Virus record (IMG/VR): IMGVR_UViG_3300032020_001000
Span: 19,862 to 83,861 of that record
Strand: one strand, 5' to 3'
Origin: a virus
DNA length: 64,000 bases
Position numbers and translations under genes: made by a program
Notes under the pieces: model-generated
Databases searched by the model: none
What the model was told of the DNA's origin: nothing
Seen by the model: the letters and a program-made list of their open reading frames with translations, nothing else
Shown: positions 43,100 to 63,726 of the stretch, piece by piece
Layout: every line of letters starts with the position of its first letter
Position numbering within the stretch: the stretch's first letter is position 1

Positions 43100-43105
43100 C
43101 GATGC

Positions 43106-43525: not shown

Positions 43526-43534
43526 GGCAGAGAC

Positions 43535-44114: not shown

Positions 44115-44118
44115 TCCC

Positions 44119-44301
44119 ATGCCTGTGCGCAAAGTGGCTGGCGGATGGCGGTGGGGACGCCACGGCAAGGTCTATCCGACGAAAGAGCAGGCCGAGGAGC
44201 AGGGCCGGGCCGCATATGCTAGCGGGTACGGCGAGCGCAAGCCGACCCGGAGACGGAAACCGACGCGGCGGTTCCGGGTTGGCAGGCGACCGGGGAGGTG
44301 A
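44119..44301 (+). CDS. Small basic phage protein (MPVRKVxGGWRWG family)
   Basis: A 60-residue basic protein with MPVRKVAGGWRWGRHGKVY, then YPTKEQAEEQGRAAYASGY and an Arg-rich tail. This short family is frequent in phage head-gene regions; function unknown. Confidence 0.75.
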   Translation: MPVRKVAGGWRWGRHGKVYPTKEQAEEQGRAAYASGYGERKPTRRRKPTRRFRVGRRPGR

Positions 44302-44304
44302 GGC

Positions 44305-44676: not shown

Positions 44677-44694
44677 CCTGCCCGCGCGGGCAGG
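44677..44694 (+). other. 18-bp perfect palindrome after a stop codon
   Basis: CCTGCCCGCGCGGGCAGG follows the stop of 44305-44676 immediately. It can form a hairpin but has no T run. It may be a protein-binding or RNA-processing site. The remaining bases to 44791 hold no gene. Confidence 0.6.
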
Positions 44695-44791
44695 AGCCAT
44701 ACATCCGCTAGCCGGGGCGATGCGGTTTGACCATGAGTCGGGCCGCAACCGGCAGACCCGCCGCGGGGCGTAAAACCGGAGGGAGATCATT

Positions 44792-45613
44792 ATGGCCGAG
44801 ACGACCGAGACCAAGAAGACTGAGGACGAAGAGGGCAAGCCTGGCGCCGGTGGCACCACGCAAGGCGGCGCTGTGGAAGCACAGCGCGGCGAGGGCGGGC
44901 AGAAGACCGACCAGCCCGCTGCCGGTGATGCCGCCAAGCCCCCAGCGAGCGCAACCGACCAACAGGCGCCCAAGGGTCAGGAAACCGAGAAGCCCAAAGA
45001 GACGCAACCGCCGGCGACACAGGCGAAGGGCATCGAGGTTAAGTTGACTCAGACGCAGGTGGACCGGCTGGTCAAGGATGGCGTCCTGGAGTTGGGCGCG
45101 GAGCAATATACCGGCGCGGTGCAGGAACGCATGGCGACGCTGACCACGCGCGCGAAAACCGCGGAGCGACAATTGAAAGCGATCGCCGACGCCCAGGAAG
45201 AGGTCGACCGCAAAGCGCTCGTGGAGCAGGAGAAGTACAAGGAGCTCTACGAGAAGGAGCGCAAGGCGCGCGAGAAAGGGGAGGCCGCCCGCAAGGACGA
45301 CGCCATCCGCGCGCGCTTCCTGCTCGCCGCCCAGACCAAGGGGATCGTGGACCCCGACGTCGCCTGGGTCATCGCCAAGGGTCTGCCGGCCTTCAAGGCC
45401 GTGGAGGCCGACGATGAAGGCGCAATCGCGGGTCTGGACGAGGTCGTCGAGGCGCTGATCAGCGCCAAGCCATATCTGATCTCCCAGCAGGCGCCGAAGC
45501 CGCAGACCGTTGGGGCGGTGAGTAATCCGGCTCAGCAAGTGCCGGTGCCGCCCAAGAATCTCGCCGAGGCTGGGGATGCCCTGGAGCGGGCTCTACGCAC
45601 CGGCGTCACTTAG
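44792..45613 (+). CDS. Capsid scaffolding protein
   Basis: A 273-residue protein directly before the major capsid gene, with GGAGGGAG upstream. The N-terminal 75 residues are low-complexity and charged; residues 110-175 form a coiled coil (YTGAVQERMATLTTRAKTAE, then QEEVDRKALVEQEKYKELYE), and a helical C-terminus follows. This is the common scaffold architecture; it would be lost from mature capsids. Confidence 0.78.
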   Translation: MAETTETKKTEDEEGKPGAGGTTQGGAVEAQRGEGGQKTDQPAAGDAAKPPASATDQQAPKGQETEKPKETQPPATQAKGIEVKLTQTQVDRLVKDGVLELGAEQYTGAVQERMATLTTRAKTAERQLKAIADAQEEVDRKALVEQEKYKELYEKERKAREKGEAARKDDAIRARFLLAAQTKGIVDPDVAWVIAKGLPAFKAVEADDEGAIAGLDEVVEALISAKPYLISQQAPKPQTVGAVSNPAQQVPVPPKNLAEAGDALERALRTGVT

Positions 45614-45635
45614 TCGCGGCAGCGAGGAGTAACAG

Positions 45636-46547
45636 ATGCCCGCAACGATGACTACGCTGGCCGATCTGATCGTCCAGCTGTACAAAGGGCCATGGGTAGA
45701 GGCCCTGTTCACGAACACCTTCCTGCTCACCCGCATCCAGCGCAAGCAAGGGGTGGGTGACGGCATCCGCTGGCCGGTGCGTTACGCCGGCAACGCCTCC
45801 GCTGGCTCCTACGCCGAGGCCGACAGCGCGCTCGGAAGCGGGAACCAGGGGTTCAAGAAAGCCTACCTCGCCTGGAAGCTCAACAAGGTCGAGGTGGAGG
45901 TATCCGGCCTGGCGCAGGCCGTCGGTGATGCTGGCGGCATGATCGTGCCCGCGCTGCGCACCGAGCTTGATCTGGGCCTGGCAGACCTGCGGGGCAACAT
46001 CAACACGCAACTGATGGGCGATGGGACCGGCAACTCGAACAAGGATATCACCGGCCTGCTGGCCGCGATCTCCGATGCCGGCACCACCTATGCCGGCATC
46101 GACCGCGCTTCCTTCACCTGGTGGAAAGCATACGTCAACGCCAACGGCGGCACCCCGCGGAACGTGAGCGAGGCGCTGATCCGCACTGTCAAGTCGACGG
46201 TGGAGGGGCGAGGAGGCCGCGTGACCGCGATCTACACTGGCTCCGCCCAGTGGTACAAGTATGGCGACTTGCTGCGCAGCGAGCGACGCCAGCAGACCCC
46301 AGGCACCCTGACCGGCGGATACCAGACCCTCGACTTCGAGGGGGCCCCCATGATCAAGGTGCCCGGATATCCGGCCGGCCGCATGGATTTCGTGGACGAG
46401 GAATTGCTTGAGTACGACGTCCTCACCGACTTTGCCGCGAAGCCCATGGCGAAGGTCAAGGACTCCGACCAGATCTGGATCACCCACTACAGCCAGCTGG
46501 TCTGCCGGAATCCCTACCGCATGGGCAGCCTGCAAGACCTGGCCTAG
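45636..46547 (+). CDS. Major capsid protein (HK97 fold)
   Basis: A 303-residue protein following the scaffold gene. It contains a long beta region (GIRWPVRYAGNASAGSYAEAD), LAWKLNKVEVEVSGLAQAV, TELDLGLADLRGNINTQLMGDG (spine-helix-like) and a later ILDSxx-type P-domain segment. Location, size and composition fit an HK97-fold shell protein of a siphovirus. Confidence 0.82.
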   Translation: MPATMTTLADLIVQLYKGPWVEALFTNTFLLTRIQRKQGVGDGIRWPVRYAGNASAGSYAEADSALGSGNQGFKKAYLAWKLNKVEVEVSGLAQAVGDAGGMIVPALRTELDLGLADLRGNINTQLMGDGTGNSNKDITGLLAAISDAGTTYAGIDRASFTWWKAYVNANGGTPRNVSEALIRTVKSTVEGRGGRVTAIYTGSAQWYKYGDLLRSERRQQTPGTLTGGYQTLDFEGAPMIKVPGYPAGRMDFVDEELLEYDVLTDFAAKPMAKVKDSDQIWITHYSQLVCRNPYRMGSLQDLA

Positions 46548-46588
46548 TCGGCTGGCTGGCCGATCGGCTTAGAAGGAGGAGAATCACC

Positions 46589-47323
46589 ATGCCAATCGAC
46601 GAGGCAACAAAGGCGAGGCTGAACACCCTCACCTGTCCCAACCTCACGGACGTGGCGCTGGGCACCATCGTCCAGGACCTGCAGAATGGCATCGTCGCCG
46701 GCCACGTGGACAATGTCGGCATCGAGATCGGGGCCGGCAACACGGTGCAGCTCAAGAATGGCGGCGTGGCCATCGCGAAGATCGCAGATGACGCGGTGAC
46801 GAAGGCCAAGGTGGCGGCTGACGTGGCCGGCGCCGGGCTGGGTCAGAATGTCGACGGCTCCCTCGAAGCGAAGGTCGATGCCTCGACCATTGAGATCGCC
46901 ACCGATACTCTGCAGGTCAAGGCCGGCGGCATTGCGCCAGCGCATCTGGCAGCCGACATTGCCCTGACCATTCGCCATCGGGTGACCGTCGCCGAGGTGA
47001 ACGCCGGCCACACTCTGGTCACCCCACCGACTGGCCGCGCACTCCGCCTGGTGGATGTGGCACTGATCGCGATCGGCGGCGGCGCCGCCGGCGCGACCAC
47101 GGTGGACATCCTGGACGGCGCGACCAAGCTGTTGGCGGCGGCCGTGGCCGGGCTCACTCAGTCGGCTCTCCTGCGTGCAGGGGCGACCAATGCCGCCATC
47201 CTCGCGGATGGGGCTTCGTTTGTCGCGCTCGCTGCCAATGCCCCAATTACCATCGGCAAGACCGGGGGCGACCTTTCGGGCTGCACCAACATCGACGTGA
47301 TCCTGACCTACAGCCTCACCTAA
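46589..47323 (+). CDS. Capsid decoration / head fibre-like protein
   Basis: A 244-residue protein after the capsid gene, with AGAAGGAGGAG upstream. Its middle has repeat-like segments (GGVAIAKIADDAVTKAKVAA, GGIAPAHLAADIA) typical of fibrous phage proteins, followed by a beta-rich C-terminal domain. Position suggests a capsid decoration or head fibre protein; no sequence-level family is firm. Confidence 0.6.
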   Translation: MPIDEATKARLNTLTCPNLTDVALGTIVQDLQNGIVAGHVDNVGIEIGAGNTVQLKNGGVAIAKIADDAVTKAKVAADVAGAGLGQNVDGSLEAKVDASTIEIATDTLQVKAGGIAPAHLAADIALTIRHRVTVAEVNAGHTLVTPPTGRALRLVDVALIAIGGGAAGATTVDILDGATKLLAAAVAGLTQSALLRAGATNAAILADGASFVALAANAPITIGKTGGDLSGCTNIDVILTYSLT

Positions 47324-47346
47324 TCGGAGGGCGGAGGATGTAGGCG

Positions 47347-47447
47347 GCGCTGTGCATGCACAGCGCGGGGTCTGGATCGCGATCGGCACATACGCGCGAT
47401 TCGGGGCCGGCCCTGATCTCGATCAAGGTAAGCCGCGGGCCGGCCCC
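47347..47447 (+). other. Two strong inverted repeats between head genes
   Basis: GCGCTGTGCATGCACAGCGC (47347-47366) is a perfect 20-bp palindrome. It is followed by GGGGCCGGCCC (47403-47413) pairing with GGGCCGGCCCC (47437-47447). The stretch 47324-47472 holds no gene. No T run follows, so this may be an operator, an RNA structure or a weak terminator. Confidence 0.6.
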
Positions 47448-47472
47448 CCAAATACAGCCACAGGAGGCTGAG

Positions 47473-47856
47473 ATGCGCAGAGAGACTGATGGTGAGGTCC
47501 GAGATGCGGCCGCGACAGAGGACACAGAGGCGACAGCGCAGTCACAGGCAGCACCACCCCAACTGGAGCAGATCCCGCCGGGACATCCAGTAACGCAGCC
47601 ACCCGCGCCGGCGGGACCCGGGAGCCGCCCGTTGACGGCGATGATGGCTCTGCCCGAGCCGCAGCGGACCGACGAGATGGAGCAGGCCGTCCAGGCCGGG
47701 AGAGCCTATACCATCCGCAGCACGACTGGCGATCTGGTCCGAGTGAGCTATGGCCAGCACGTGCTCGAGGTGCCACCCGAGGGCCGGCAGTTCATGGCGC
47801 CGCATGCCATCCATCTGCTGTGGGTGGCGCCCGACCGGGTGGAGGAAGTGGGCTAG
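47473..47856 (+). CDS. Hypothetical head-region protein
   Basis: A 127-residue protein from ATG 47473 (GGAGG upstream). The first 60 residues are low-complexity, rich in Ala, Gln and Pro; the last 60 are beta-rich (YTIRSTTGDLVRVSYGQHVL). No family recognised. Confidence 0.55.
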   Translation: MRRETDGEVRDAAATEDTEATAQSQAAPPQLEQIPPGHPVTQPPAPAGPGSRPLTAMMALPEPQRTDEMEQAVQAGRAYTIRSTTGDLVRVSYGQHVLEVPPEGRQFMAPHAIHLLWVAPDRVEEVG

Positions 47857-48456
47857 GTGCCGACTGATCCCATTGAGGCAGAGGTTGGTGGAGCGAGCAG
47901 CAACTCCTACGTGACGTTGGAGGAGGCGGCAGCCTATTTCGCGGCGGGGCTCAACGCCGATGCGTGGGATGCCGCCACCAAGACGAACCAGGAGAAGGCG
48001 CTGCTAACCGCATGCCGGCGCATCGAGGCCTGCCGCATTTCCATCAACCGGCCGCGCTACGAGTATGCCTCCTATGGCGGGCTAGACTACGATCCGCTGG
48101 CGCCATATCAGGCGACGCAGCGGTTGAGCTTTCCCCGCCAGCGCGACCGGGATATGGCCGGCGCCTACATCATCCCGCAAGCCGCGCGGGATGCCCAGTG
48201 CGAGGAGGCGATCGCTCTGCTGGAGCTCGGAAATCAGGATGCGCGTCGGGCGGCGCTGCGGGCTGAGGGAGTGCGTTCGTTCTCCGTTGACGGGCTGAGC
48301 GAGACATACGTCGACGTCGAGCCCGCTAACAGTGGACTGTCCAGTCCAGAGGCGCGAGAGATGATCGCTCCCTACTTGCGGCGCGGCGCCATGATTGCCA
48401 CCAGCGACAGCCCGCAGGGGGAATGGACGCCGGGCACTCGGGGTGGCGCGGGGTGA
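47857..48456 (+). CDS. Head-tail connector (adaptor) protein
   Basis: GTG 47857 starts directly after the previous stop. The 199-residue protein reads SNSYVTLEEAAAYFAAGLNADAW, ALLTACRRIEACRI, QRLSFPRQRDRDM and QCEEAIALLELGN, the pattern of proteins often annotated DnaT-like or gp6-like head-tail adaptors. They join the portal ring to the tail. Confidence 0.75.
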   Translation: MPTDPIEAEVGGASSNSYVTLEEAAAYFAAGLNADAWDAATKTNQEKALLTACRRIEACRISINRPRYEYASYGGLDYDPLAPYQATQRLSFPRQRDRDMAGAYIIPQAARDAQCEEAIALLELGNQDARRAALRAEGVRSFSVDGLSETYVDVEPANSGLSSPEAREMIAPYLRRGAMIATSDSPQGEWTPGTRGGAG

Positions 48457-48758
48457 TCAACGATTACCTGGCACAGGATATCTGGCGCAAATCGAGGACG
48501 GGCGTTGACAGTTATGGCCAAGCGACCTTTGGCGCGGTAGTTCAGACGACCGGTCGCTGGTTGGAGAAGCGACGGCTGGTGCGCAACGCCGAGGGCGAGC
48601 AGGTGATCTCGGAAGTCACTGTGACCCTGGGACCTGAGGAAACCTTGGCGGTGGGTGATCAACTCTCCGCTGATGGCGCGGCTTACCTGGATGTCATCGC
48701 TGCCTCCGTCTCTCGTGGGTTGGGCGGCGAGGCGGAGCTGAAGCGGGCCTATCTGTAG
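48453..48758 (+). CDS. Head closure / stopper-like protein
   Basis: GTG 48453 overlaps the previous TGA; ATG 48423 is an alternative. The 101-residue product has DIWRKSRTGVDSYGQATFG near the start and a beta-rich remainder, the size and position of head closure proteins of siphoviruses. Assignment rests mainly on gene order. Confidence 0.55.
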   Translation: MINDYLAQDIWRKSRTGVDSYGQATFGAVVQTTGRWLEKRRLVRNAEGEQVISEVTVTLGPEETLAVGDQLSADGAAYLDVIAASVSRGLGGEAELKRAYL

Positions 48759-48777
48759 GCCCAGGGAGGACGAGGAG

Positions 48778-48963
48778 ATGAATTGGGGATTGACGCTGAC
48801 GAAGGGCCTGGTGATCGGATGCCTGGCCGCGATTGGCGTGGTGGCCGCCGACATCCAGACCATAGCCCCCTGGTGGGCAGGTCTGGCAGCGCTGGCCGTG
48901 GAGGCCATCCGCGATGTGATCAAGACCCGCTTCGGATCATTCGCGGTCTCAGAATCAGAATGA
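48778..48963 (+). CDS. Small two-segment membrane protein
   Basis: A 61-residue product with a GGACGAGGAG leader. Two hydrophobic stretches (LVIGCLAAIGVVAA and WWAGLAALAVEAI) could span the membrane. Its size resembles small holins, but it sits among connector genes and no lysis partner is seen, so that reading is weak. Confidence 0.55.
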   Translation: MNWGLTLTKGLVIGCLAAIGVVAADIQTIAPWWAGLAALAVEAIRDVIKTRFGSFAVSESE

Positions 48964-49445
48964 TGAAAGTCAGCATGAGGCTGCGTGGGCTCGAGGAAAC
49001 CTTGCGCGCGATCGGCGTGGGCGGCACGCTCTGGCGGCATGTGATGACGCACGCCACGCAGGGCATGATCGAAAACACCGAGGACCTGCTCGGTCGCGCC
49101 ATGCGCGATGCCCCACTAGACGAGGGAACGCTGCGAGGCAGCGGAAACGCCGCGGTCTACATTCAGGGCAAGGCTGTGGCTCGGAGTGGATTCGCCGAAG
49201 TGGGCGATGAAGCTATCGGCCCTGAGATTCGCCAGATCATTGAGGGCGGCGGCGGCCATAACATCGTTGGCGTGGTGGGATTTAACACGCCATATGCATT
49301 GGCGCAGCACGAGCGCCTGGACTATCAGCATCCGAAGGGGGGCAAGGCCAAGTACCTCGAGGATAACCTGAAAGAGCATGAACGCCAATATCAGGGGAAT
49401 CTCGACAAGCACGTGGCCAAGGCACTGCTCAGATGGCATTACTGA
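48963..49445 (+). CDS. HK97 gp10-like tail completion protein
   Basis: A 160-residue protein starting in an overlap at 48963. It has a helix followed by DLLGRAMRDAPLDEGTLRGS, the family's (A)P-x-D-x-G-x-L-R-x-S motif, then FNTPYALAQHERLDYQHPKG near 120-139 and KYLEDNL, as in HK97 gp10-type proteins. It helps join the tail to the connector. Confidence 0.8.
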   Translation: MKVSMRLRGLEETLRAIGVGGTLWRHVMTHATQGMIENTEDLLGRAMRDAPLDEGTLRGSGNAAVYIQGKAVARSGFAEVGDEAIGPEIRQIIEGGGGHNIVGVVGFNTPYALAQHERLDYQHPKGGKAKYLEDNLKEHERQYQGNLDKHVAKALLRWHY

Positions 49446-49844: not shown

Positions 49845-50984
49845 ATGCCGGCGACAATCGCGAGCGTTGACCCGACCCATGCAAAAGCCGGGGACGCGGG
49901 CATCACCATCATCGGCACGGGGTTCGCGGATGACCCGACCCTGAGCACCGTGTGGTTCCGGCTGCACGGCGAGCAGGCCTGGCTGGATGTGGCGCCAGCC
50001 CGCGTCACTTATGTGTCCGCGACCGAGATCAGCTTCGCCATCGATGCAGCCAACACCGATGGATGGACAGTCGGTGTGCAGGATATTGGGGTCGGCGATT
50101 TCGGGGACACGGAGCCTGACGCCTACCTGGCATCCGCCCTGCTGTACTACGAGGAGGAAGACATGGCAACGACCATCACAGACGTGTACCCAAGCGACGC
50201 GAAAGCCGGGGACGCGGGCATCAGCATCATCGGCACGGGATTTCTGGAGGCGCCGAGCAAATCGGTCGTCCTGTTTCGCGCGCCAGCGGCCGAGACCTGG
50301 GAACTGGTGGCGCCGGCCCGCGTGACCTATGTGTCGGCGACCAAGCTGACCATCGCGATCGATGTGGCCAACACCGATGGATGGAACCTTGGCCTGAACG
50401 ACGTGGGCGTAGCCGATTACACCGAGAGCGTGCCCGATGCCTACCTGGAGGGGGCACTGTTTTTCTACGTCCCCGCCGCGTTCTCGCCTGACGATGTGAT
50501 GAAGGGCGCGCCCGACGCTCTGTACATCGAGGGCCGATTCATGGGCCACACCCACGGCGGACTGACGCTTGCGCACGGGGTCGACACCTCAGAGGTCGAG
50601 GTTGACCAGTCATTGATGCCGCTGCGCATCCTGAAGGCTGGCGAGACATTCGGAGTATCCGTGCCGCTGGCCGAAGTGACGCTCGAGAACATCCGGGCGC
50701 TCTGGGGCATCTCGGCTGCCATCGAGGAATTGGACGCTGACCGCCGCCGGCTGACTTTCGGCGGGGATACCGAGATAGCCGAGGTCCCTGTGATGATCGT
50801 GGTGCCGGCCGGCGCTGGCAAGAAGTGGGCCATCACATTGTACCGCTGCGCCGTGACGAGTCCTGGAGATCTGGTCTGGTCGCGCGATGATCAGGTAGAT
50901 CTGCCGCTCACAATTCAGGTGATGGCGGATACCAGTCGGCCCGCCGGCGACCAAGTCGGCCGCTTCGAAGAGTACGCGGTGTAG
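49845..50984 (+). CDS. Tail tube-like protein with two IPT/TIG Ig-like repeats
   Basis: A 379-residue protein. The first 205 residues are two clear repeats: DPTHAKAGDAGITIIGTGF ... ARVTYVSATEISFAID and YPSDAKAGDAGISIIGTGF ... ARVTYVSATKLTIAID, each about 105 residues and resembling IPT/TIG Ig-like folds. The last 170 residues look like a tail-tube domain (DALYIEGRFMG near 222, SEVEVDQSLMPLRIL, VTLENIRALWG, and a strand-rich end) and are paralogous to the next protein's C-terminal half. Likely builds the siphophage tube with surface-exposed Ig domains. Confidence 0.68.
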   Translation: MPATIASVDPTHAKAGDAGITIIGTGFADDPTLSTVWFRLHGEQAWLDVAPARVTYVSATEISFAIDAANTDGWTVGVQDIGVGDFGDTEPDAYLASALLYYEEEDMATTITDVYPSDAKAGDAGISIIGTGFLEAPSKSVVLFRAPAAETWELVAPARVTYVSATKLTIAIDVANTDGWNLGLNDVGVADYTESVPDAYLEGALFFYVPAAFSPDDVMKGAPDALYIEGRFMGHTHGGLTLAHGVDTSEVEVDQSLMPLRILKAGETFGVSVPLAEVTLENIRALWGISAAIEELDADRRRLTFGGDTEIAEVPVMIVVPAGAGKKWAITLYRCAVTSPGDLVWSRDDQVDLPLTIQVMADTSRPAGDQVGRFEEYAV

Positions 50985-52791: not shown

Positions 52792-53018
52792 CGCCGATGC
52801 AGATCGAGTTGCTGGTGGGTGCAATCGGCCGGCGGAGGCGGCGCGAAACTCACGAGCAGGCGGTCCTTCTGCGGATGGCGCAGGTGGATGGCAGAGCATT
52901 CGCGCGATTCCTGCGGCAACTCGATCCCGATCATGCGCCTGGTCGGGTGCGGGACATGACCGCAGAGCAGTGGCAAGCCATGGGAGTGAAGATTCGGAGA
53001 GCACCGAGCGATGACTGA
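52683..53018 (+). CDS. T-like extension of the tail chaperone (made by -1 frameshift)
   Basis: In the -1 frame, 111 residues follow the slippery site, giving a fusion of about 261 residues with the G-like protein. The segment LSEYGGYTHESVIWRMTPMQ is typical of T domains. The frame also has an internal ATG at 52788, but upstream coding sense shows it is mainly reached by frameshift. The extended form would bridge tape measure and tube. Confidence 0.78.
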   Translation, partial: RARKGPARDGGRWADLCDAILSEYGGYTHESVIWRMTPMQIELLVGAIGRRRRRETHEQAVLLRMAQVDGRAFARFLRQLDPDHAPGRVRDMTAEQWQAMGVKIRRAPSDD

Positions 53019-56000
53019 AGTCGGGCGAGTAGAAGTTGCGATCGTAGGCAATGTGCAGGGGCTGGCCGCCTCCTTGAAGACAGTTCAGGGCAAGCTGCTG
53101 GCATTTGGGGGATGGGTGCGGCAGCGTGAGGGCGAGCTGCGGCAGTTAGGGATGATCGCCATGGCCGCCGGCGGGGCGATCAGCGCCGCCATGATTATTG
53201 CGGTACGGGGTGCCACCGAGTTCGAAGCCGAGATGCGCAACGTCAACTCGATCCTCAAAGCGAGCGACACCGCTTTGCGCGACCTCGGGAAATCGGCGCT
53301 AAATCTTGCCGGTAAGACCGGCCAGGCGCCAGCAGTGCTTGCCCGTGGCCTCTACGACATTGCATCCTCCGGCTTCGAAGGCGCGGCGGCCCTCAAAGTG
53401 CTGGAGGCCTCGGCAGTGGCTGCCACCGCCGGAATCAGCGACACCGCCACCGCCAGCCGAGCGATCACCGCCGTGCTCAATGCCTATGGCCTGAGCGCGG
53501 AGAAGGCGACCTGGGTCTCCGACATCCTGTTCAAGACCGTCGAGCGCGGCGTCATTACGTTCCCCGAGCTCGCACAGCAGATCGGCGATGTGATCTCGAC
53601 CGCCGCGCAGGCGAAGATTCCCTTGGAGGAGGTGGGCGCGGCAATCGCCACGCTGACCAGGGCCGGCGTGCAGCCGGCCGAAGCGGTGACCTCGCTCAAC
53701 CAGGTATTGCTGAGCTTCATCCGCCCCAGCGACGAGGCGAAGAAACTCGCCAAAGCCCTGGGCATCGAGCTGAGCGCGACCGCGCTCGCCAGCACAGGGC
53801 TGTCGGGCGTGATGGCAGACCTGGGGCAGGCGCTCGGCACGACGGTTACCGAGTTGGATGCTGCGACGGCGGCGGGCAAGAGCGAGGCCGAGGTCATGGA
53901 GGAGGTGGCCCGCAACGCCGGCACCACCACCGAGCGACTCGCTGAACTGTTCCCCAATGTGCGCGCCTTGCGTGGCGCTCTGGTGCTAGCTGCCGGGGGC
54001 GGGCGCGCCTTCGCTGGCGACGTGACACTCATGGCCAATGCCACCGGCGCCGCTGCCGCCGCGTTCGAGGAGCAGAGCAAAGCGTTTGCGCGAGTATGGG
54101 ATAAACTGAAGGCGAGCCTGCAGGCCCTGGCCATCGAGGTAGGCGATACGTTCCTGCCGATGCTTACCAAATCTACTGCCTCGCTGCGCGATCATGTTCA
54201 GGCGCTACGCGAATGGCGCGAGGGACATGTAGGCGTCAGCGGAGCGATTACGAAAGTGATCGCCGCGATCGGAGCATTCCTGTTCGGCGCAGGCGGCATT
54301 ACGATGCTGCTGATTTGGCTGGCGCGCGCCAAGGAAGCCTTCACGGCGTTGGGTATAGCCGCCTCGACGGCGGGCACGATAATCGCGACCATCAAATTCG
54401 GTGCGGTGGCCGCCGCCGTCTGGTTGCTTATCTATGCCATCCAGCAACTGCGCAAAGATTTCGACCAGTCGGCCCAGGCAGCTCGTGGAGCCGAGCAGGC
54501 ATACATCGACGCGTTCGAGGCGGGCCGCCTAAAGAAGCCGCCGCCAAAAGTCGGAAAGCTTACGCTTGCCGAAGAGAGCCTACTGCCGTTTGCGCGCGTC
54601 ACCCCCAAACGGATGCGCAGCGAAGCGCAGCAGCGGCTTATCGAGAAGGCCGATCGCATCATCGCGCAGCGCAAGGCTCTCGAAGAGTTCCGGCCAGAAC
54701 TTGCGCCGGGATATAAGCCTCCTCCAGGGCCGCCAAAGATACCACCAGCGCCGCCCACACGACGGCCACCGGCACCGGGCGAGGGCAAGGGCGCGGCCGA
54801 AAAGCCTCCCACGCGCGAAGAGGCCGCACAGGCATGGCTCGAGCGCGTCCGCCTCGAAATTGCGGCTGCCGATGCAATCGCAGAGCAGGTCAAGTGGGAG
54901 CGGACGCTTCAGGATACGCTGGCCCGTATCGCTGCCGACGAAAAGTTCTCGCTGGAATTCCGGCTCCGCGCGCAGGGCGAACTGAAGGACATGCGCGAGG
55001 AGGATGCGCGCCGCCAAAAGGAGTTCGCCGAGGGGATGACCGCGGCGTTCGCGCAGATGTGGGAAAATGCGATTCAGACCGATGAGCGGCGCCGCCAAAC
55101 CCTGGGAGAGTTGTTGGCGCAGCAATATGAAATCGCCGCGACAGACGAGATGCGCACGAAGGCCGCAGCGGCCCTGAAGGGCTATCTGGCCGATGAGTTG
55201 CGCCTGGCCGAGGCTGTTGCAGCGCGCACCGCCGAGGGCGACCAGGAACACAGCCTCGCTCTGCTGCGGATATACGACATCAAGAACCAGATCGTCGCTT
55301 TGACCAGCGCCGAATACGAGCGGACGCACCAAATCGTGCAGAACTGGGATGCGGTGCTGGCCAAGCTGGGCAATCTGCGCGATGCCCTGATTGGCGCACA
55401 AAGGGCAGTGGCGGCGGAGGGATCGCTTGCCGCCAGCATGATCGGCGCCCGCAAGCCGCAAGCGCCGACGACGGAAGTCCAGATCAAGCCCAGCGCTTAC
55501 GGCCTGACGACCGAGCCGACAGCGGAAGACGTGGCGATGCGCGAGCGCCTGCTCACGGTGCAATATGAGCTGGCGCAGGGGACGGAACGCGAGGCGAGAG
55601 CGCGGGCCGAGCTGATTGGCCATTTGCAGGGGCAGTTGGCTTATTGGGAGCGCATGGAGGGATACAGCCGGACGGAGGGTGAGCGCGCCGAGGCCCTCGA
55701 ACGGCAAGTGGAGATTCGGCGCCGGCTCGAGAGCATGCAGGTGCGTGAGGTCTCGCTCTGGGACCGCTTGAAAGCGACGGCACAGGCAGCGCTCGATAGC
55801 ATCCGCCAGGGCTTTGAGGACTCGCTTTTCCAGATCATCAGGTATGGCGGGAACCTCAAGGATTTCTGGCAGAGCCTTTGGGACACATTCCTGAAGCTTG
55901 CCATCCATGCGCTCGTGCAATGGGTGATCGAGGAATGGGCCGCGGCGGCGAAGGTGAGGGCGGCAAGGGCATCTGCTGGTGGCGCTGGAGGCGGTGGCAA

Positions 56001-56355
56001 GAAAGAGTGGTGGGAATACATTCCTGACATTCTCCCCTTCCTGCAGCGCGGCGGCTCGGTTCGCAAAGGCCAACCAACAGTTGTCGGTGAGCGGAGGCGG
56101 GAACTCTTCGTCCCCGAAACGGCCGGCTACATCCTGCCGGATGCGCAGGCTGCTTTCCAGCGGTTCGCCGAGATAGCGCTCGCCGGGGCGGGGGCTCTTG
56201 GGGGCAACGTGGGCGGAGGCGTCACCATAGGGCCGGGCGCTGTCGTCATCAACGCCCAGACGCTCGACGAGCGCACCGTGCGCGATGCGGGTGCACTGCT
56301 CGCCGACGAGGTAAACCGGCGACTGGGCTGGACCGACCGGCGGGCAGGAGTCTGA
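53011..56355 (+). CDS. Tape measure protein
   Basis: The longest tail gene: 1114 residues after the chaperones. An N-terminal region with FEAEMRNVNSILKASDTAL, LARGLYDIASSGFEG and FPELAQQIGDVISTAAQAKI is the TP901-like tape measure domain. Hydrophobic segments (about 400-480, including FLFGAGGITMLLIWLA) precede long helical regions and a Gly-rich end. Its length sets tail length; at about 1.5 angstroms per residue this would be a tail of around 150 nm. Assembled with the G/GT chaperones. Confidence 0.92.
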   Translation: MTEVGRVEVAIVGNVQGLAASLKTVQGKLLAFGGWVRQREGELRQLGMIAMAAGGAISAAMIIAVRGATEFEAEMRNVNSILKASDTALRDLGKSALNLAGKTGQAPAVLARGLYDIASSGFEGAAALKVLEASAVAATAGISDTATASRAITAVLNAYGLSAEKATWVSDILFKTVERGVITFPELAQQIGDVISTAAQAKIPLEEVGAAIATLTRAGVQPAEAVTSLNQVLLSFIRPSDEAKKLAKALGIELSATALASTGLSGVMADLGQALGTTVTELDAATAAGKSEAEVMEEVARNAGTTTERLAELFPNVRALRGALVLAAGGGRAFAGDVTLMANATGAAAAAFEEQSKAFARVWDKLKASLQALAIEVGDTFLPMLTKSTASLRDHVQALREWREGHVGVSGAITKVIAAIGAFLFGAGGITMLLIWLARAKEAFTALGIAASTAGTIIATIKFGAVAAAVWLLIYAIQQLRKDFDQSAQAARGAEQAYIDAFEAGRLKKPPPKVGKLTLAEESLLPFARVTPKRMRSEAQQRLIEKADRIIAQRKALEEFRPELAPGYKPPPGPPKIPPAPPTRRPPAPGEGKGAAEKPPTREEAAQAWLERVRLEIAAADAIAEQVKWERTLQDTLARIAADEKFSLEFRLRAQGELKDMREEDARRQKEFAEGMTAAFAQMWENAIQTDERRRQTLGELLAQQYEIAATDEMRTKAAAALKGYLADELRLAEAVAARTAEGDQEHSLALLRIYDIKNQIVALTSAEYERTHQIVQNWDAVLAKLGNLRDALIGAQRAVAAEGSLAASMIGARKPQAPTTEVQIKPSAYGLTTEPTAEDVAMRERLLTVQYELAQGTEREARARAELIGHLQGQLAYWERMEGYSRTEGERAEALERQVEIRRRLESMQVREVSLWDRLKATAQAALDSIRQGFEDSLFQIIRYGGNLKDFWQSLWDTFLKLAIHALVQWVIEEWAAAAKVRAARASAGGAGGGGKKEWWEYIPDILPFLQRGGSVRKGQPTVVGERRRELFVPETAGYILPDAQAAFQRFAEIALAGAGALGGNVGGGVTIGPGAVVINAQTLDERTVRDAGALLADEVNRRLGWTDRRAGV

Positions 56356-56415
56356 GGGCGGCTAGCATGACTCTCGGTTCCTATGCTCTACCGATTGATG
56401 GAAAGGAAGATTCCA

Positions 56416-56967
56416 ATGAGAAAGACGATTCACGGTCATGCTGATGTGCGGTGTTTTGACAAGGATGGGAAACTCAAGTGGGAAGAGCTGGGCATCCATA
56501 ATGTCTGGCACGATGAGGGAGAGCAGTACCTCCTCAGCCTGGCCTTTGCCACGGCCTATTCGGGCTATGGGTCACCCACGGTCGCCACGATGTATATCGG
56601 CCTCGACAGCCGAGCCTCGCTGGCTGAGGGCGACACGCTGGCGACGATCAACGGCATTGAGCCGAACGTAGCCTACGGATATGCTCGTCTGGGTTGCGTG
56701 ACCAGCGGTACTGGAGTAGCGGGGCAGGACTTCGTACTTTCGCAGCCAGTGGCTGCTTGGCAGGCGCTGACCAAGGAAGTCACATTCCTGGCGGCGGGCG
56801 GCGCGTGGGCGCAGATGAAGAACTGTTTCCTCTGCACGCACCTGACTGCCGTTACTTCCGCGCAGGGCCAGCGGCTGATAATGTCGTTGGCGCTCTCACA
56901 GCCGCGCACGTTGGCCGATGGCGAGAGCGTCAAAGTGAGCATGTACGTCCAGATCAGCGAGCCCTAG
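56416..56967 (+). CDS. Minor tail protein, unknown family
   Basis: A 183-residue protein; ATG 56416 follows AAGGAAG and is preferred over ATG 56383. It is beta-rich with HNVWHDEGEQYLLSLAFATA near the start, as in small phage tail or baseplate proteins. It sits just downstream of the tape measure. Confidence 0.6.
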   Translation: MRKTIHGHADVRCFDKDGKLKWEELGIHNVWHDEGEQYLLSLAFATAYSGYGSPTVATMYIGLDSRASLAEGDTLATINGIEPNVAYGYARLGCVTSGTGVAGQDFVLSQPVAAWQALTKEVTFLAAGGAWAQMKNCFLCTHLTAVTSAQGQRLIMSLALSQPRTLADGESVKVSMYVQISEP

Positions 56968-56984: not shown

Positions 56985-58838
56985 ATGGCACTAGCTTACG
57001 GCACATACGGGCAAGTCAAGGCCGCGACCAACCCAGTCACGTTGTCCTTCACCTGCCCCGCCAACACGCGGGTGCTGGTGGTAGGTCTTGCGGTCGGCAG
57101 CGTTACCGCCAGGGGTGGCGGGAACCCCACTTACAATGCCCTGCCGATGACGCAGGCCTATGCGCGCCAACAGGCGGCGACCGAGGTGGCGGCGGAGATG
57201 TGGTATATCATCAACCCGCCCACCGGCGCTGCCTACAACATCAGCGTGCCGAACAGCGGTGTACTCAGCGTCAGGATCATCGCCTCGGCCTACACCAGCA
57301 CGGTTGCGAGCAGTGCGGCCCTCGATGTTGCGAATGGCCAGGTGGGGACGGTTCTCAACCCATCTACCGCCGTTACGACCACCAAAAACGGGGATGCCAT
57401 CGTTGACATTATGGCGAACTCGCTAAACACCGTCGAGACTGGCCGTAACAATACCCTGTTGTATTGCCTTGACGAGGGCACGTGGAACTCCTCGGCGCAG
57501 TATGAACTCCAGGCAGCATATGGAACCACGACCTTCAGCCACACCATCGCTGCGGCGAACTGGGGTCATATCGTTGCTTCGTTCAAGGAAGTGACAATCT
57601 ACGATGAGACTAATCGCAGCCAGGCGCTGCTACTCACACAGGCGCGAACCGACCGCCAGACTTACAGAGAGGCAGCCCGCAGCCAGGTGGTCCTGCTGGC
57701 GCAGGCCCGCAGCGATTGGCAGGCCTACCGCGAGGTCAACCGCAGTCAGGTGGTATTGCTCGCCCAGGCGCGAACTGACCGACAGACTTACCAAGAAGCC
57801 AGTCGTGCGCAGACGCTCCTGCTGCTTCAGGGCCGCACAGACGGGATTATCTATGGCGAACTGAATCGCGCTCAGGTCATGCTCGTCGCGCAAGGGCTCG
57901 CGGATCGCCAAAGCTATGCTGAGGTCGCGCGGGGGCAGGCAATCCTTCTCGGTCAGGTTGTGACCGACAAGCAGGACTACCGAGAGACGGATCGTGGCCA
58001 AGCGCTGATGTTGGCTCACGGCCAGAGCGCGTGGCAGACCTACGCCGAAGTTGGTCGCGCCCAGGCGCTCGCGTTCCTTCAAGGCGAGGCGGATCGCCAG
58101 GCATACAGCGAACTTGCCCGCGGGCAAATCGTCAGACTTACGCAGGGAAGCGCCACCTTCCAAACCTACGCCGAGGTGAATCGGCCGCAGGGTCTCCTCA
58201 TCGTCCAGGGCGCGACCGATGAATATATTCCGCTGGCCGTAGTCTATGACGAGACCGGACTGGCCCAGGCGCTGCTCCTGGTGCAGGCTCGCACGGATAA
58301 GCAGAATTATCGCGAGGTCAATCGCAGCCAGCCATTGGACTTGTCGCACGGTGCCGGCGATTGGCAGTCCTACCACGAGTTGAATCGCGCATCCGTTCTG
58401 ATACTGGTACATGACCGTATGGATCGCCAAGTCTATGTTGACCGAGAGTGCGGTCAATCCCTGTTGCTCGCACACGGGCAGACGGATCGCCAGACGTACA
58501 GTGAACTCTTGCGCGAGCAGGTTGTGGTCCTGGTCCTCGGCGCAACCGATGAATACCTGCCGATAGGGGAATATGACGAGACCGGCCTGGTTCAGATGCT
58601 TTTGCTTCAGCATGGCGGAAGCGATCTCCAGCATTACAGCGAGGTTGACCTGTCGCAGATTCTCATGCTTCTGCATGGGGCTAGCGTTGTCTATCTGCGG
58701 GCCGCAGGCGCGCTTCCTATACTCATCGCCGCAGACCTGTCGCATGGCGCGCTATTCACTGCGGAACTGATCCCGTCCCCCCAACAACTAGACGGCCGGC
58801 TCTCCGAAGGCGCGCCCGAGGACGCCGAATTCGTTTGA
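56985..58838 (+). CDS. Tail protein with seventeen tandem 21-residue repeats
   Basis: A 617-residue protein. Residues 1-205 form a beta-rich domain (CPANTRVLVVGLAVGSV, TYNALPMTQAYAR). From residue 206 (nt 57600) a repeat of 21 residues recurs about 17 times with pattern Y-x-E-x-x-R-x-Q-x-(hydrophobic)4-x-Q-(G/A)-x-x-D-x-Q-x; repeats 10, 15 and 17 have short insertions. A non-repetitive tail closes it. The regular strand-turn pattern suggests a solenoid or fibre shaft. No family recognised. Confidence 0.72.
   Translation: MALAYGTYGQVKAATNPVTLSFTCPANTRVLVVGLAVGSVTARGGGNPTYNALPMTQAYARQQAATEVAAEMWYIINPPTGAAYNISVPNSGVLSVRIIASAYTSTVASSAALDVANGQVGTVLNPSTAVTTTKNGDAIVDIMANSLNTVETGRNNTLLYCLDEGTWNSSAQYELQAAYGTTTFSHTIAAANWGHIVASFKEVTIYDETNRSQALLLTQARTDRQTYREAARSQVVLLAQARSDWQAYREVNRSQVVLLAQARTDRQTYQEASRAQTLLLLQGRTDGIIYGELNRAQVMLVAQGLADRQSYAEVARGQAILLGQVVTDKQDYRETDRGQALMLAHGQSAWQTYAEVGRAQALAFLQGEADRQAYSELARGQIVRLTQGSATFQTYAEVNRPQGLLIVQGATDEYIPLAVVYDETGLAQALLLVQARTDKQNYREVNRSQPLDLSHGAGDWQSYHELNRASVLILVHDRMDRQVYVDRECGQSLLLAHGQTDRQTYSELLREQVVVLVLGATDEYLPIGEYDETGLVQMLLLQHGGSDLQHYSEVDLSQILMLLHGASVVYLRAAGALPILIAADLSHGALFTAELIPSPQQLDGRLSEGAPEDAEFV
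57600..58713 (+). repeat. 63-bp tandem repeat region (about 17 units)
   Basis: DNA encoding the 21-residue repeats. Copies 1-3 are most alike (CGCAGCCAGG, GCGAACCGACCGCCAG and similar), later copies diverge, suggesting older expansion. Unequal exchange could change the shaft length. Confidence 0.8.
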
Positions 58839-58865
58839 TAGGATTGATCTCATAGGATTGATCTC
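58838..58865 (+). repeat. 14-bp perfect tandem duplication before a start codon
   Basis: ATAGGATTGATCTC occurs twice without a gap, overlapping the previous stop codon region and ending at ATG 58866. Each copy holds a weak AGGA ribosome site. Confidence 0.9.
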
Positions 58866-59174
58866 ATGGCAAACATCCTCTACGTCGGAGATTATGGGTT
58901 TCCGATACCGGGGCCGGCCCGACTGATCCTGGACGATGCGCCATATGACCCCGCCGGCGATTCCGTGACCTTCATCTATCACAAGCCCGACCGTAGCATG
59001 GTCTCGGTTACTCCGGCGATTGAGGGCACGATTGCGAGTTATGCGCCCGAGGAAGGGTTTATAAATCAAGCTGGCCCGTGGAAACTACGCATCGTCGTCA
59101 TCACGCCACCCGATCCTCCGCTGCCAGTCCGACGATGCATGGCTCTAATCCGATTCAGGGTGCTCGCGGGATGA
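58866..59174 (+). CDS. Small beta-rich tail/baseplate protein
   Basis: A 102-residue protein with an Ig-like strand pattern (DAPYDPAGDSVTFIYHKPD, APEEGFINQAGPWKLRIVVI), reminiscent of BppU N-terminal or related baseplate domains that end in a strand after a Gly-x-Trp. Assignment is by composition and position. Confidence 0.6.
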   Translation: MANILYVGDYGFPIPGPARLILDDAPYDPAGDSVTFIYHKPDRSMVSVTPAIEGTIASYAPEEGFINQAGPWKLRIVVITPPDPPLPVRRCMALIRFRVLAG

Positions 59175-59558: not shown

Positions 59559-61061
59559 GTGCCTCGTAACCTTCCCCAGAACTACCTCGATACGCTGGCG
59601 GCGACCTCGCTGGAGAGGTGGCCGAGCTGCAAGGTGGAGGTCTACTTCGGCGGCGACTGGCAGGACATCAGCGCCTTCGTCGCCGGCGTGTCCGTGACGC
59701 ACACGATGGAGCAGCGCGGCGGGGAGGCGCGGGTGCGCGTTGCCGACCCCAACCTCGACTACCAGCGGTTCCTGGGCGATGTTGACTTCTGGAGCGCGGG
59801 CAGCGCGGACTCGCCGCTGCGCGAGGGGCACCGGATTCGCATCTCCATCACCAACGCGCCAGCATCACTCATCCAGGTCTTCCAGGGCTACATCCGCGAG
59901 ACCTCGGAGACCATCGAGCGCGGCGCGGCGCGCGTCATCGAGCTTGGCTGCGTTGACGCCGGCTGGAAGGCCTACGAGCAGGAGATCACGATGGGAGCGC
60001 GGGTCTATACAGACCCCGCCTACGGCGACGCGGTGACCCGTCAGGTCAACACCATCATCCGCGCAATCCTCAAGCACCCCAACGTGGGCTTCGCCGACGA
60101 GGACATCATCCTCGTAGACGATGGCGCCTACGCCCTGCTGGAGTGGAAGCCGAGCACCTTCACGCCGACGCAGGCCATCGGCAACCTGTTGGACTGCATC
60201 GGCGCGCGGCTGCGCTTCGACCATGCGGGCAAGGCGGTCTCCTGCCTATGGAATCCAGTGGGCGCTCCCGCCTGGACATACGGCAGCCTGAGCGAGCAGA
60301 ACCTCATCGCGTCGTTCGAGATCCGCTCGCGGCCGCCGCGCGAGCTGGCAAACAGGGTGACGGCCATAGGGCGCAAGTGGGGTACCGGCGCGGACGTGAT
60401 CGAGGAGGTATGCATCGGAACCTTCATGTGCCAATATCAGGGATGGGACTACGGGCCGCGAGAGCGCAACCTCTACCTGTTTGCCCCAAAAGACAACCGC
60501 CTACCGGATGACTACATCGAATTGTATACGGACGTGCGTTGCGAACAGGTAGGCGGGCATGTAGAGGATTCCACTGGCGCCTATTACATCGGGGTCTATG
60601 GCGGCATGCCTCCGCCCCGAGCCGGTCTCGTACATATCGGCTGGCAGGGTCAATGTTATTACCCCGAGGACTATGTGGATGTCAGGGCTTGGGGCAAACC
60701 GATACAGCCAACTGCGGGTGCCTTTACCGCGACCAAGACCGTCTCACAGCTCTCCGCGCACGGCTATATCGGCGAGGTCACCGTCGAGAACGACCTGTTC
60801 AAGGACAACGCCGCCTGCGAGGCCGCCGCGACGCGCGCCGCGACGTGGCTCATGAACGAGATGTTCCCTTGCTCGCTGACCGTGCCGTGCAATTTGTGCC
60901 ACGAGCCGGGCGACAAGATTCGGGTGTACCTGCCGAAGGGCAGCACCGCCGACGACTACGTGGACTTCATCCTGGTAACGCACCGCATCGAGTACGAGCG
61001 CGGCAAGCCCAATGTCTCGGTGCTGGAACTGGTGCCCGACTTCGCGCCGACGATAACCTGA
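59559..61061 (+). CDS. Tail hub / baseplate protein
   Basis: GTG 59559 starts a 500-residue protein directly after the previous stop. It begins with a beta-rich domain containing FVAGVSVTHTMEQRGGEARV and LREGHRIRISI, VFQGYIRETSET, then later domains and a final FILVTHRIEYERGKPNVSVLELVP, a layout like gp27/gpD-type hub proteins. It would form the trimeric or hexameric ring at the tail tip. Confidence 0.72.
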   Translation: MPRNLPQNYLDTLAATSLERWPSCKVEVYFGGDWQDISAFVAGVSVTHTMEQRGGEARVRVADPNLDYQRFLGDVDFWSAGSADSPLREGHRIRISITNAPASLIQVFQGYIRETSETIERGAARVIELGCVDAGWKAYEQEITMGARVYTDPAYGDAVTRQVNTIIRAILKHPNVGFADEDIILVDDGAYALLEWKPSTFTPTQAIGNLLDCIGARLRFDHAGKAVSCLWNPVGAPAWTYGSLSEQNLIASFEIRSRPPRELANRVTAIGRKWGTGADVIEEVCIGTFMCQYQGWDYGPRERNLYLFAPKDNRLPDDYIELYTDVRCEQVGGHVEDSTGAYYIGVYGGMPPPRAGLVHIGWQGQCYYPEDYVDVRAWGKPIQPTAGAFTATKTVSQLSAHGYIGEVTVENDLFKDNAACEAAATRAATWLMNEMFPCSLTVPCNLCHEPGDKIRVYLPKGSTADDYVDFILVTHRIEYERGKPNVSVLELVPDFAPTIT

Positions 61062-61062: not shown

Positions 61063-63726
61063 ATGCTACCTTCCCGCGATGACTTCTGGATAGAGCGTGT
61101 CCGCCGCGAGCGGCAATACCACCGCTCCACCTTCGCGGCCGTCGTGACGCTCATCCACGACGACGGCACGGTGGATGTGCGCATGGTGGCGAGTGGCGGC
61201 GCCGCGTTCTACCGCGTACCAATTTTGGGCCAACTGACGGTGAGCGTTGGCAGCATCGTGACCGTGCAGCGCATCGGCGACTATCGCGGCAACAACTACC
61301 AGGTAACCGGCCATCTGGCCTCTAGCGCGCCGCCAGGCGGTGGATATGACCCCACCATTCCTGCCGCAACAAGCGAGGAGGTCGTCGCGGCGCGGGACTC
61401 CGAGGTATATGGCGCGCACGACACCCTCGACGAGCGCCTCGAGGCCGGAGATGATGCCGGCCTGGGCGACGGCAAGGTGAAGGCGGTGCACCTGGCGCCG
61501 GGAACCTTCCCGCGCGTCCACGACCCGCGCAGCCTGGTGCCGGACGGCGCCTTCGAGGTTGTGCAGGACGCCGCGCTGGCCTGGTGGATGGGATCTTATG
61601 GTCCCGCCACCATCGCCCGCGTCGCTGGCGATGGGACGGCCGGCGGGGCCTGCCTGGAGTTCTCGGCGCGCACGGAGGCCAATACCGCGGCCGGTATCTA
61701 TGTGCGATTCCGGACGCACAGCACCAACGCCGCCCTCGCCCCGCTTGATGAGGGAGGGATATTCGCGGTTGGGATAAGTGCCAAGCGCGTGGGGGCGGCG
61801 GATGGCAACGTCATCGGCCTGGTCATCGAGTGCTACGACCGCGATCTCGCACTCCTGGGCACCCTTACGCCGATAACTTTCGCCCCGCCAACCGACGCGT
61901 GGCTGAGGCAGGCCCCCATATTCATCGGGCCCGATCAGGATTACACCTGGCCAGCCGGCACGCGTTATATCCGCGTGCAAGTGCGTGACACCTCTAGCGG
62001 CATGGGCGCAGTCAACCGCGTGGACATGGTGGTGGTGCGGCGGGGGATACAGATCGCCGACATCGCCGACTTCGAGGGCGGCGGGGGCGACCATGCTGCG
62101 CTGAGCAACCTCGATTTCCCCTCCGCCGGGCACACCGGCAACCTGGGGATCACTAAGGCCGACCCGGAAGTGCGGCTCACCGACACCGGCGATTCCGAAT
62201 ACACGCGCGTCACCCGCGCCGACACCGACGCCCTCGCGGCGCGCTACAACCGCGTCTATAAGCCGGGGGCGGCGGGGTACGCGATAGACCTCGACGGCGC
62301 GCAGGACTACATCACTCTCGGCACGGATGCCGCCTTCAATCTCACCGGCGACCACAGCATCGAGATGTGGGTGAAAACGTCGTCGGCGGCCAGAAGGGGG
62401 CTTTTTCATAGGCTTGAAAACGGCGGGGCATATCCGGGTTATAACTTCGAGTTGGGCGGTTTTGCCGGCGCGGCGGGCCAGTTGGCCTACTACAATGGCA
62501 ACACGGGCTGGAAGTACGGCACTTCTACCAACGTCATCAACAACGGCAGTTGGCACCATATCGTGATCGTGGTTGACGCCGATGTGGGCGGCACGTTCTA
62601 CAAGGATGGAGTGGCCGATGGCGACTGGGCTGACACCACTTCGGGGCCTCCCAGCGCCGGTGCAATCGCTGCTGAAATCGGCAGGTCTTATGCGGGCGGC
62701 AACTTCTTCCTCGGCGCGTTGGACGAAGTGCGCGTTTACAGCAAGGCACTGAGCGCAGGCGAGGTCACGGCGCACTACAACGCTGGCGCGGGGCAGTACG
62801 GTGCGCCAGAAGCGAACCTGGTGGCTGGCTGGCACCTCGACGAGGGCAGCGGCGTCACGGTCGCGGACTACAGCGGCAACGCCCACACGGGGACGCTGAA
62901 GCCGACCGGCAACGAGCCGGGCTTCGTCGCGGGCAAGTTCAATATCCCCGGCGGGGAAACCGAAGTCACCGTCTGGCAGTCGCAGGACGGCGTTGACCCA
63001 AACGAGAAGGGGATTCAGCGTTTCGGTGATCCAGACGGCAGGACGGAGCTTAGGGGCGTGCTCGAAATACAGCAGCGGCTGACGCCTGCGAACCCCGCTA
63101 GCGGCAAGCGGCGGCTGTTTGTGGACAGCGCGGACGGCAAGCTCAGGGTGCTGACCTCCTCCGGCAAGAATATCAGCCTCGAAGAGCGTGCGGGCTTCCG
63201 CGTCATAGACGCCAAGAACCTGCTGCCGGACGGCGCTTTCGAGGTAGACGATGATGCCGACGGCGTGCCCGACTGGTGGACTTGGCCCGCTTCGAGCGGC
63301 GGTACGCGGACACTCATCACAACTGATAGCGTATCCGGCCGGCAGTGCGTGCAGTTCGACCGCACCGTAGCCAGTGTGGGGATTGATATGTACGCACAGG
63401 CGAACCGCGGCCTCGTTGATGGCAGGTACATCCCGATCAACCGGGCGTTCACCTACTCGGTCGCCATCTGGATGAGAGCCGTCTGGGCGCAAGCGCAAAA
63501 TGTAATCCAGGTCTGGGTCTATCAGGCTGACCGCAGCGGCGGGTACCTGACGGCCACTATGGTCATAAACATCACGCCCGATGTCGACTGGGTACAACAG
63601 GTCGCCACCATCGGCCCTGCGGCCTGGCACGCCGACGCCGTGTATGCCTATATCCTGGTGCGGGACGCAAGCACCAGCGTGGCCGCGGTGACCCGCGTAG
63701 ACTGCGTGCGGTTCTGGCTGCCGTGA
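61063..63726 (+). CDS. Tail tip / receptor-binding protein with LamG-like domain
   Basis: An 887-residue protein. Residues 20-90 are an OB-fold-like start (STFAAVVTLIHDDGTVDVRM, VGSIVTVQRIG). Two related carbohydrate-binding-like domains begin with RSLVPDGAFEV (about 156) and KNLLPDGAFEV (about 722). Between them is a LamG-like jelly roll (DYITLGTDAAFNLTGDHSIE, NGSWHHIVIVV, LGALDEVRVYSKALS), followed, rather than preceded, by the usual VAGWHLDEGSGVTVADYSGN segment. Such domains bind surface glycans, so this is the best receptor-binding candidate in the window. Confidence 0.72.
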   Translation: MLPSRDDFWIERVRRERQYHRSTFAAVVTLIHDDGTVDVRMVASGGAAFYRVPILGQLTVSVGSIVTVQRIGDYRGNNYQVTGHLASSAPPGGGYDPTIPAATSEEVVAARDSEVYGAHDTLDERLEAGDDAGLGDGKVKAVHLAPGTFPRVHDPRSLVPDGAFEVVQDAALAWWMGSYGPATIARVAGDGTAGGACLEFSARTEANTAAGIYVRFRTHSTNAALAPLDEGGIFAVGISAKRVGAADGNVIGLVIECYDRDLALLGTLTPITFAPPTDAWLRQAPIFIGPDQDYTWPAGTRYIRVQVRDTSSGMGAVNRVDMVVVRRGIQIADIADFEGGGGDHAALSNLDFPSAGHTGNLGITKADPEVRLTDTGDSEYTRVTRADTDALAARYNRVYKPGAAGYAIDLDGAQDYITLGTDAAFNLTGDHSIEMWVKTSSAARRGLFHRLENGGAYPGYNFELGGFAGAAGQLAYYNGNTGWKYGTSTNVINNGSWHHIVIVVDADVGGTFYKDGVADGDWADTTSGPPSAGAIAAEIGRSYAGGNFFLGALDEVRVYSKALSAGEVTAHYNAGAGQYGAPEANLVAGWHLDEGSGVTVADYSGNAHTGTLKPTGNEPGFVAGKFNIPGGETEVTVWQSQDGVDPNEKGIQRFGDPDGRTELRGVLEIQQRLTPANPASGKRRLFVDSADGKLRVLTSSGKNISLEERAGFRVIDAKNLLPDGAFEVDDDADGVPDWWTWPASSGGTRTLITTDSVSGRQCVQFDRTVASVGIDMYAQANRGLVDGRYIPINRAFTYSVAIWMRAVWAQAQNVIQVWVYQADRSGGYLTATMVINITPDVDWVQQVATIGPAAWHADAVYAYILVRDASTSVAAVTRVDCVRFWLP

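Follow-up and report, generated by a model that had tools for sequence, protein, structure and literature searches.

The window, by which we mean the whole stretch of 64,000 nucleotides analysed here, runs from base 19862 to the end, base 83861, of a virus record of 83861 bases and carries a cassette of three adjacent genes directly downstream of a tape-measure gene. The middle gene (56985..58838, plus strand) encodes a protein of 617 residues, with coordinates, strand and length in agreement with an earlier sequence-only reading of this DNA. The features of the region are as follows.

45636-46547: SU10-like capsid protein, upstream (profile searches)
49845-50984: tail tube-like protein, upstream (profile searches)
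53011-56355: tape-measure protein, upstream of the cassette (PF10145, E 4.7e-30, and many PHROG tape-measure families)
56383..56967, plus strand: cassette gene 1, 194 residues as listed, Gp80-like (podophage GP4 fibre I; PF23140)
56985..57599, plus strand: N-terminal domain of the repeat protein, residues 1-205, presumed anchor (phrog_2106 match; 78% identity in the relative)
57600..58229, plus strand: repeat block 1, units 1-10, residues 206-415 (unit segmentation)
58230..58244, plus strand: linker 1, residues 416-420, between GATDEY and YDET (counterpart break after unit 16 of the relative)
58245..58559, plus strand: repeat block 2, units 11-15, residues 421-525 (unit segmentation)
58560..58571, plus strand: linker 2, residues 526-529, between GATDEYL and YDET (counterpart break after unit 20 of the relative)
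58572..58697, plus strand: repeat block 3, units 16-17, residues 530-571 (unit segmentation)
58698..58838, plus strand: C-terminal tail, residues 572-617, and stop codon (open reading frame)
58866..59174, plus strand: cassette gene 3, 102 residues, BppU_N-like (34% identical homologue in the related record)

Downstream of the cassette follow genes for a 119-residue protein, a 500-residue tail-like protein (phrog_1887, E 3.4e-4) and an 887-residue protein with a laminin-G domain. The last of these, a putative tail protein at 61063-63726 whose concanavalin/laminin-G domain matches PF13385 with E 2.4e-27, is a second candidate for binding the host surface. An ARAGORN call of tRNA-Gly at 60090-60184 (minus strand) lies inside the 500-residue tail gene and is probably false. 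Just 5' of the start of gene 3, a perfect 14-bp tandem duplication (ATAGGATTGATCTC x2, 58838-58867) doubles an AGGA ribosome-binding-like site.

Seventeen units of 21 residues fill residues 206-571 of the repeat protein, exactly as the sequence-only reading had claimed together with the pattern Y-x-E-x-x-R-x-Q...D-x-Q; the segmentation and the self-similarity of the array at lag 21 both bear this out. BLOSUM62 self-similarity reaches 1.34 at lag 21 and 1.14 at lag 42, and a chance origin of the repeats is excluded because the best value among 500 shuffles over all lags from 5 to 69 was -0.21. The consensus unit is Y-x-E-x-x-R-x-Q-x-L-L-L-x-Q-G-x-T-D-x-Q-x, with Y1 present in all 17 units, E3 and Q8 in 16, L12 and D18 in 14, R6 and Q20 in 13, and L10 and G15 in 11; position 14 holds Q in ten units and H in six. 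Beyond what had been described before, two short linkers, one behind unit 10 and one behind unit 15, split the array into blocks of 10, 5 and 2 units (starting at residues 206, 227, 248, 269, 290, 311, 332, 353, 374 and 395; 421, 442, 463, 484 and 505; and 530 and 551), and residues 1-205 form a separate, non-repetitive domain. All three blocks start with YDET units and the first two end in GATDEY plus a short linker; R6 is absent from the unit directly after a linker in this array and in that of the relative described below.

At the DNA level, TRF detected no tandem repeat within the array, and a nucleotide repeat search found copies spaced 63 nt apart with about 60-77% nucleotide identity. 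Mean unit-to-unit identity is 41% for amino acids and 52% for nucleotides, and identical residues share the same codon at a frequency of 0.449 compared to 0.480 expected from codon usage. This low identity, with codons mixed as codon usage predicts, indicates that the array is old and held by protein-level selection, and the lack of a TRF array together with the randomised codons rules out a recent DNA-level tandem expansion.

Across all scans we found a single relative of the repeat protein, in record IMGVR_UViG_3300035660_000007 (G035, 64840 bases; contigs L040, L041 and L048 are this one record). The related protein has 713 residues, and its array is periodic at lag 20 with secondary peaks at 10 and 30 residues. 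A manual segmentation that took 15 weak HMM matches as its guide divides it into 23 units. Of these, 14 have 20 residues, 4 have 21 and the remaining 5 differ from both in length; as in the window, two linkers interrupt the array, here leaving blocks of 16, 4 and 3. The residue missing from the 20-residue units falls between E3 and R6. The suggestion that repeat number would vary among relatives is thus supported, with 17 compared to 23 units and a period of 21 compared to mostly 20, but since there is only one relative this variation rests on two arrays.

The N-terminal domains of the two proteins are 78% identical at a third-codon-position identity of 57%, which indicates strong purifying selection on this domain. 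With 42 of 78 fourfold sites identical, synonymous sites are near saturation; this rules out a recent transfer of the domain, and we therefore call the cassette relocated rather than recently moved. Residues 2-197 align weakly with the C-terminal half of the minor tail protein family phrog_2106 (E 3.5e-4), in which nothing resembles the repeats, and the whole protein of the relative instead matches phrog_20828 (E 0.022). Unit identity is 41% within the window array, 32% within that of the relative and 27% between the two; these comparisons and the conservation and hydropathy profiles below include all 17 window units and the 18 of 23 units of the relative that are 20 or 21 residues long, omitting five of 19, 22 and 24 residues. 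Units are therefore closer to their own array than to the other one, which implies that the arrays were either rewritten after the phages parted or drifted fast, alternatives that two sequences cannot separate. Judged from these sequences, the repeat rod appears to be the fast-changing part of the protein, with the anchor kept and the array longer and of shifted period in the relative.

The cassette has the same order in both phages: a Gp80-like gene, the repeat protein and a BppU_N-like gene, all adjacent. Gene 1 is 66% identical to its counterpart (L040:7436-7978) and, like that counterpart, probably starts at the later ATG, at 56416 (183 residues). Its match to PF23140 stays under the cut-off of 27 bits in the window (E 0.0023, 18.7 bits) and exceeds it in the relative (E 6.3e-9, 36.7 bits), and the latter protein also matches the head protein family phrog_240 (E 1.8e-5). 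The likeness to Gp80 concerns gene 1 only and not the repeat protein; the accessible text of PMC11654681, PMC12796354 and PMC9698820 contains no description of gp80 of GP4. For gene 3, the homologue in the related record scores just below the cut-off of 23.1 bits for PF10651 (BppU_N; E 2.4e-4, 21.3 bits), and a Pfam scan of the window protein gave no PF10651 entry. Like the N-terminal domain of the baseplate upper protein BppU it is small, but it lacks the long C-terminal part. PDB profile searches with genes 1 and 3 yielded no useful match, nor did either gene match anything in the phage collection.

In the window the cassette is flanked by the tape-measure gene on one side and the next tail gene on the other, whereas its G035 counterpart (19190-22199) is embedded in the head genes, some 18 kb away from the tail genes and preceded by genes that we take, from sequence and position, to encode capsid and head-closure-like proteins. 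The G035 homologues of the tape measure and of the 119-, 500- and 887-residue proteins are found at 40634-49303, where the tape-measure gene (40634-43822) is followed directly by the 119-residue homologue (starting at about 43833; 34% identity over 108 residues), so that the interval occupied by the cassette in the window phage is empty in G035. Among ten contigs found with related tape measures we inspected six, and none carries the cassette downstream of that gene; in each, the position immediately 3' of the tape measure is taken by another gene, which is linked to the 119-residue gene only via G035 (26%, E 3e-5). A profile search of 35 related records, many of them fragments, recovered the cassette protein only in the relative's own record. 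Other proteins common to both phages are far more diverged, with 26% identity for the tape measure and 24% for the 500-residue protein. The designation of the repeat protein as a tail protein is tentative: the labels of its neighbours mix tail and head, and the cassette of the relative lies among head genes.

The repeats matched no family in Pfam, PHROGs, NCBIfam profiles or PDB sequences apart from sub-threshold, chance-like hits (in Pfam Exostosin, UQCC3, MC_hydratase and Gastrin, which we took as chance). Contig scans rely on short peptide patterns that diverged arrays could escape; within this scope, the whole protein, the repeat alignment and the 500-residue gene had no match among viral contigs, the N-terminal domain, a second repeat alignment and the gene 1 alignment matched only the L040 record there, and both repeat alignments had no match among genome contigs. 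A tblastn search of phages and plasmids returned one chance-like match, in Shewanella phage SXP01 (E 0.5, 30% over 66 residues). Our literature search on phage fibre repeats and curli-like phage repeats found no matching phage repeat either and brought up only work on a bacterial amyloid (PMC12822426). The earlier impression of an unrecognised family therefore stands, with a match to a known phage fibre repeat family having been looked for and not found. The repeat is unnamed in the libraries and collections that we searched.

Conservation along the unit alternates from residue to residue in both arrays. In the window its lag-1 autocorrelation is -0.77 (0 of 10,000 shuffles were as low) and its lag-2 value +0.48 (P 0.006), and in the relative the sign is negative at odd and positive at even lags up to 7, with a spectral peak at 2.0 (P 0.0006). 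The window spectrum peaks at 2.4 and is not significant in the 1.95-2.3 band (P 0.12); in our opinion the odd unit length of 21 shifts the phase once in every unit and so weakens the band, which makes the lag test the fairer one. A helix signal (3.4-3.8 band) is absent from conservation (P 0.76 in the window, 0.58 in the relative) and from hydropathy (P 0.99 and 0.89), and as the relative has negative values at lags 3 and 7, its positive lag 4 belongs to the even-lag pattern. Hydropathy has no significant period-2 signal. Positions 8, 10, 12, 14 and 18, 20, 1, 3, predicted to face inward, are conserved in the window and likewise in the relative (P 0.012), where the P value serves as the only check because the positions had been picked on the window. 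The alternation in both arrays points to two 7-residue beta-strands per unit, and a layout with strands at 8-14 and 18-3 joined by turns of 3 and 4 residues (3 and 3 in the relative) fits it. Glycine gathers at one predicted turn (position 15, in 11 of 17 window units), and the one-residue length difference between the arrays falls in the other, between E3 and R6. Tests for stacking and cross-strand contacts (solenoid and meander pairing) were null.

The sequence-only reading had proposed a solenoid shaft whose variable length could set host range or tail-tip geometry, with structure prediction as a check. AlphaFold2 on the full-length protein as a single sequence was unusable (pLDDT 33.9), and on five repeats with seven in-register rows it returned one continuous helix over residues 2-104 (pLDDT 83.6, pTM 0.37; mean pLDDT of the five models 83.6, 81.9, 60.3, 55.5 and 45.8). 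A solenoid-type beta shaft fits the alternating conservation, but the only usable model is a long helix. Shallow alignments of helix-prone composition are known to yield such models, and we discount this one because the alignment is of that type, helical periodicity is absent and a 20-residue unit breaks heptads; as a model, it nonetheless remains a point against a beta rod.

We give about even chances to the explanation that the 617-residue protein is the rod of a portable three-gene adsorption module on the virion surface, composed of an anchor and stacked beta-strand repeats whose number would set its length. The N-terminal domain would anchor the protein either to the particle itself or to its Gp80-like neighbour, and each unit would fold into a pair of short beta-strands with tight turns between them, strand A being Q8-x-L10-x-L12-x-Q14 and strand B D18-x-Q20-x-Y1-x-E3, with the conserved side chains facing in and stacking unit on unit into a stiff rod that the two linkers would cut into three segments. 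Beta-solenoids usually rise by 0.48 nm per coil; if the rod were one, with this rise per unit, it would measure about 8 nm with 17 units and about 11 nm with the 23 units of the relative. An adsorption module is suggested by the gene 1 relative passing PF23140, by the gene 3 relative coming near BppU_N and by a minor tail family being nearest to the N-terminal domain. Since unit number and unit length change while the anchor is kept, the rod may set the reach or spacing of the module.

The same alternating conservation and tight turns would suit a trimeric beta shaft of the type known from classic phage fibres and spikes, in which three intertwined chains form an antiparallel meander or a triple beta-helix; each 10-11-residue half-unit would then be one strand, and the conserved face of the three chains would lie in the core. 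The secondary peaks at 10 and 30 residues in the relative and the exchange of Q and H at inward position 14 agree with such a shaft, as does the hydrophobicity of both faces of strand A: a lone solenoid could do without it, and the hydrophobic outer face would suit chain-chain packing. However, no known fibre-repeat profile matches and the meander pairing test was as null as the solenoid test, and we consider a trimeric shaft rather unlikely. A helical rod, with 21 residues as three heptads and perhaps a coiled-coil stalk, would accord with the AlphaFold2 helix and with a helix-prone composition in which A, L, Q, R and E abound, but neither array has an alpha-period signal in hydropathy or conservation, the 20-residue unit of the relative is no multiple of a heptad, its array contains 10 prolines and 27 glycines among 467 residues, and the prediction has a low pTM and a mean pLDDT no higher than 60.3 in three of its five models. 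We rejected a coiled coil on the periodicity, the 20-residue unit, the proline and glycine content and the pTM, and regard a helical rod in general as improbable.

A further alternative concerns location and overlaps with these readings of the fold: the cassette might encode a head-attached fibre or decoration module whose site after the tape measure is an accident of insertion. Its position in G035, with a head-closure-like gene on one side and further early morphogenesis genes on the other, and the phrog_240 match of the gene 1 relative would fit this, while the BppU_N-like gene 3, the minor-tail-like N-terminal domain and the tail position of the cassette in the window argue against it. We regard a head module as a realistic possibility, if somewhat short of an even chance.

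According to the accessible part of PMC10192328, curlin units of about 23 residues carry the motif N-$-hydrophobic-$-hydrophobic-$-Q twice with X-G-X-X arcs, and CsgA homologues have 4-62 repeat units. The phage repeats resemble curlin (CsgA/CsgB, PF07012) in their two 7-residue motifs per unit, in which every second residue would point inward, and in a motif A of the form x-$-hydrophobic-$-hydrophobic-$-Q, a Gln ladder, short arcs and a variable unit number. They differ in a unit of 20-21 residues, in motifs that run Q..Q (A) and D..E (B) where curlin has N..Q in both, and in the hydrophobic outward face of strand A. PF07012 had no match at E<=10 in either phage record (as a control, it matched in 3 of 14 genomes, once over the cut-off) and was absent from Pfam scans of the repeats, and hhalign of the phage repeats against the E. 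coli CsgA repeats gave a probability of 0.1% with one aligned column. As a yardstick, the five CsgA repeats themselves have a lag-1 value of -0.23 (P 0.23), so that the alternation test is no curlin detector. It would be a long shot that the array is a curli-type beta-arch solenoid with stacked Gln/Asp/Glu/Arg ladders, acting as an evolvable surface ruler in a module that moves between head and tail clusters, with the array rewritten whole (from 21 to 20 residues) and the anchor frozen. If the fold were curlin-like, a phage would have reached that architecture without the curlin sequence family, and with open-edged ends of that kind rods could even dock end to end.

If the reading as a beta-stranded adsorption rod is right, the locus would present a phage surface rod built on a repeat fold not described before, and an unusually clean natural experiment in which one conserved anchor carries arrays of 17 or 23 units (10/5/2 or 16/4/3) of 21 or 20 residues, and would thereby let one ask whether repeat number tunes phage fibre length.

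Two other repeat proteins came to light in related contigs. In five of the six inspected tape-measure-related contigs (all except L031), a gene of 80 residues downstream of the tape measure (L035:8918-9157; also L032:7188, L037:8710, L038:9884 and L039:14330) encodes about five units of 14-15 residues with the consensus [LV]TDx[LV]xLxVxVxxx; this is a further repeat protein, shorter and similarly placed. A capsid-related contig encodes a pentapeptide-repeat-like protein (L012:667-1926; FQGxAxF, periods 11/22).
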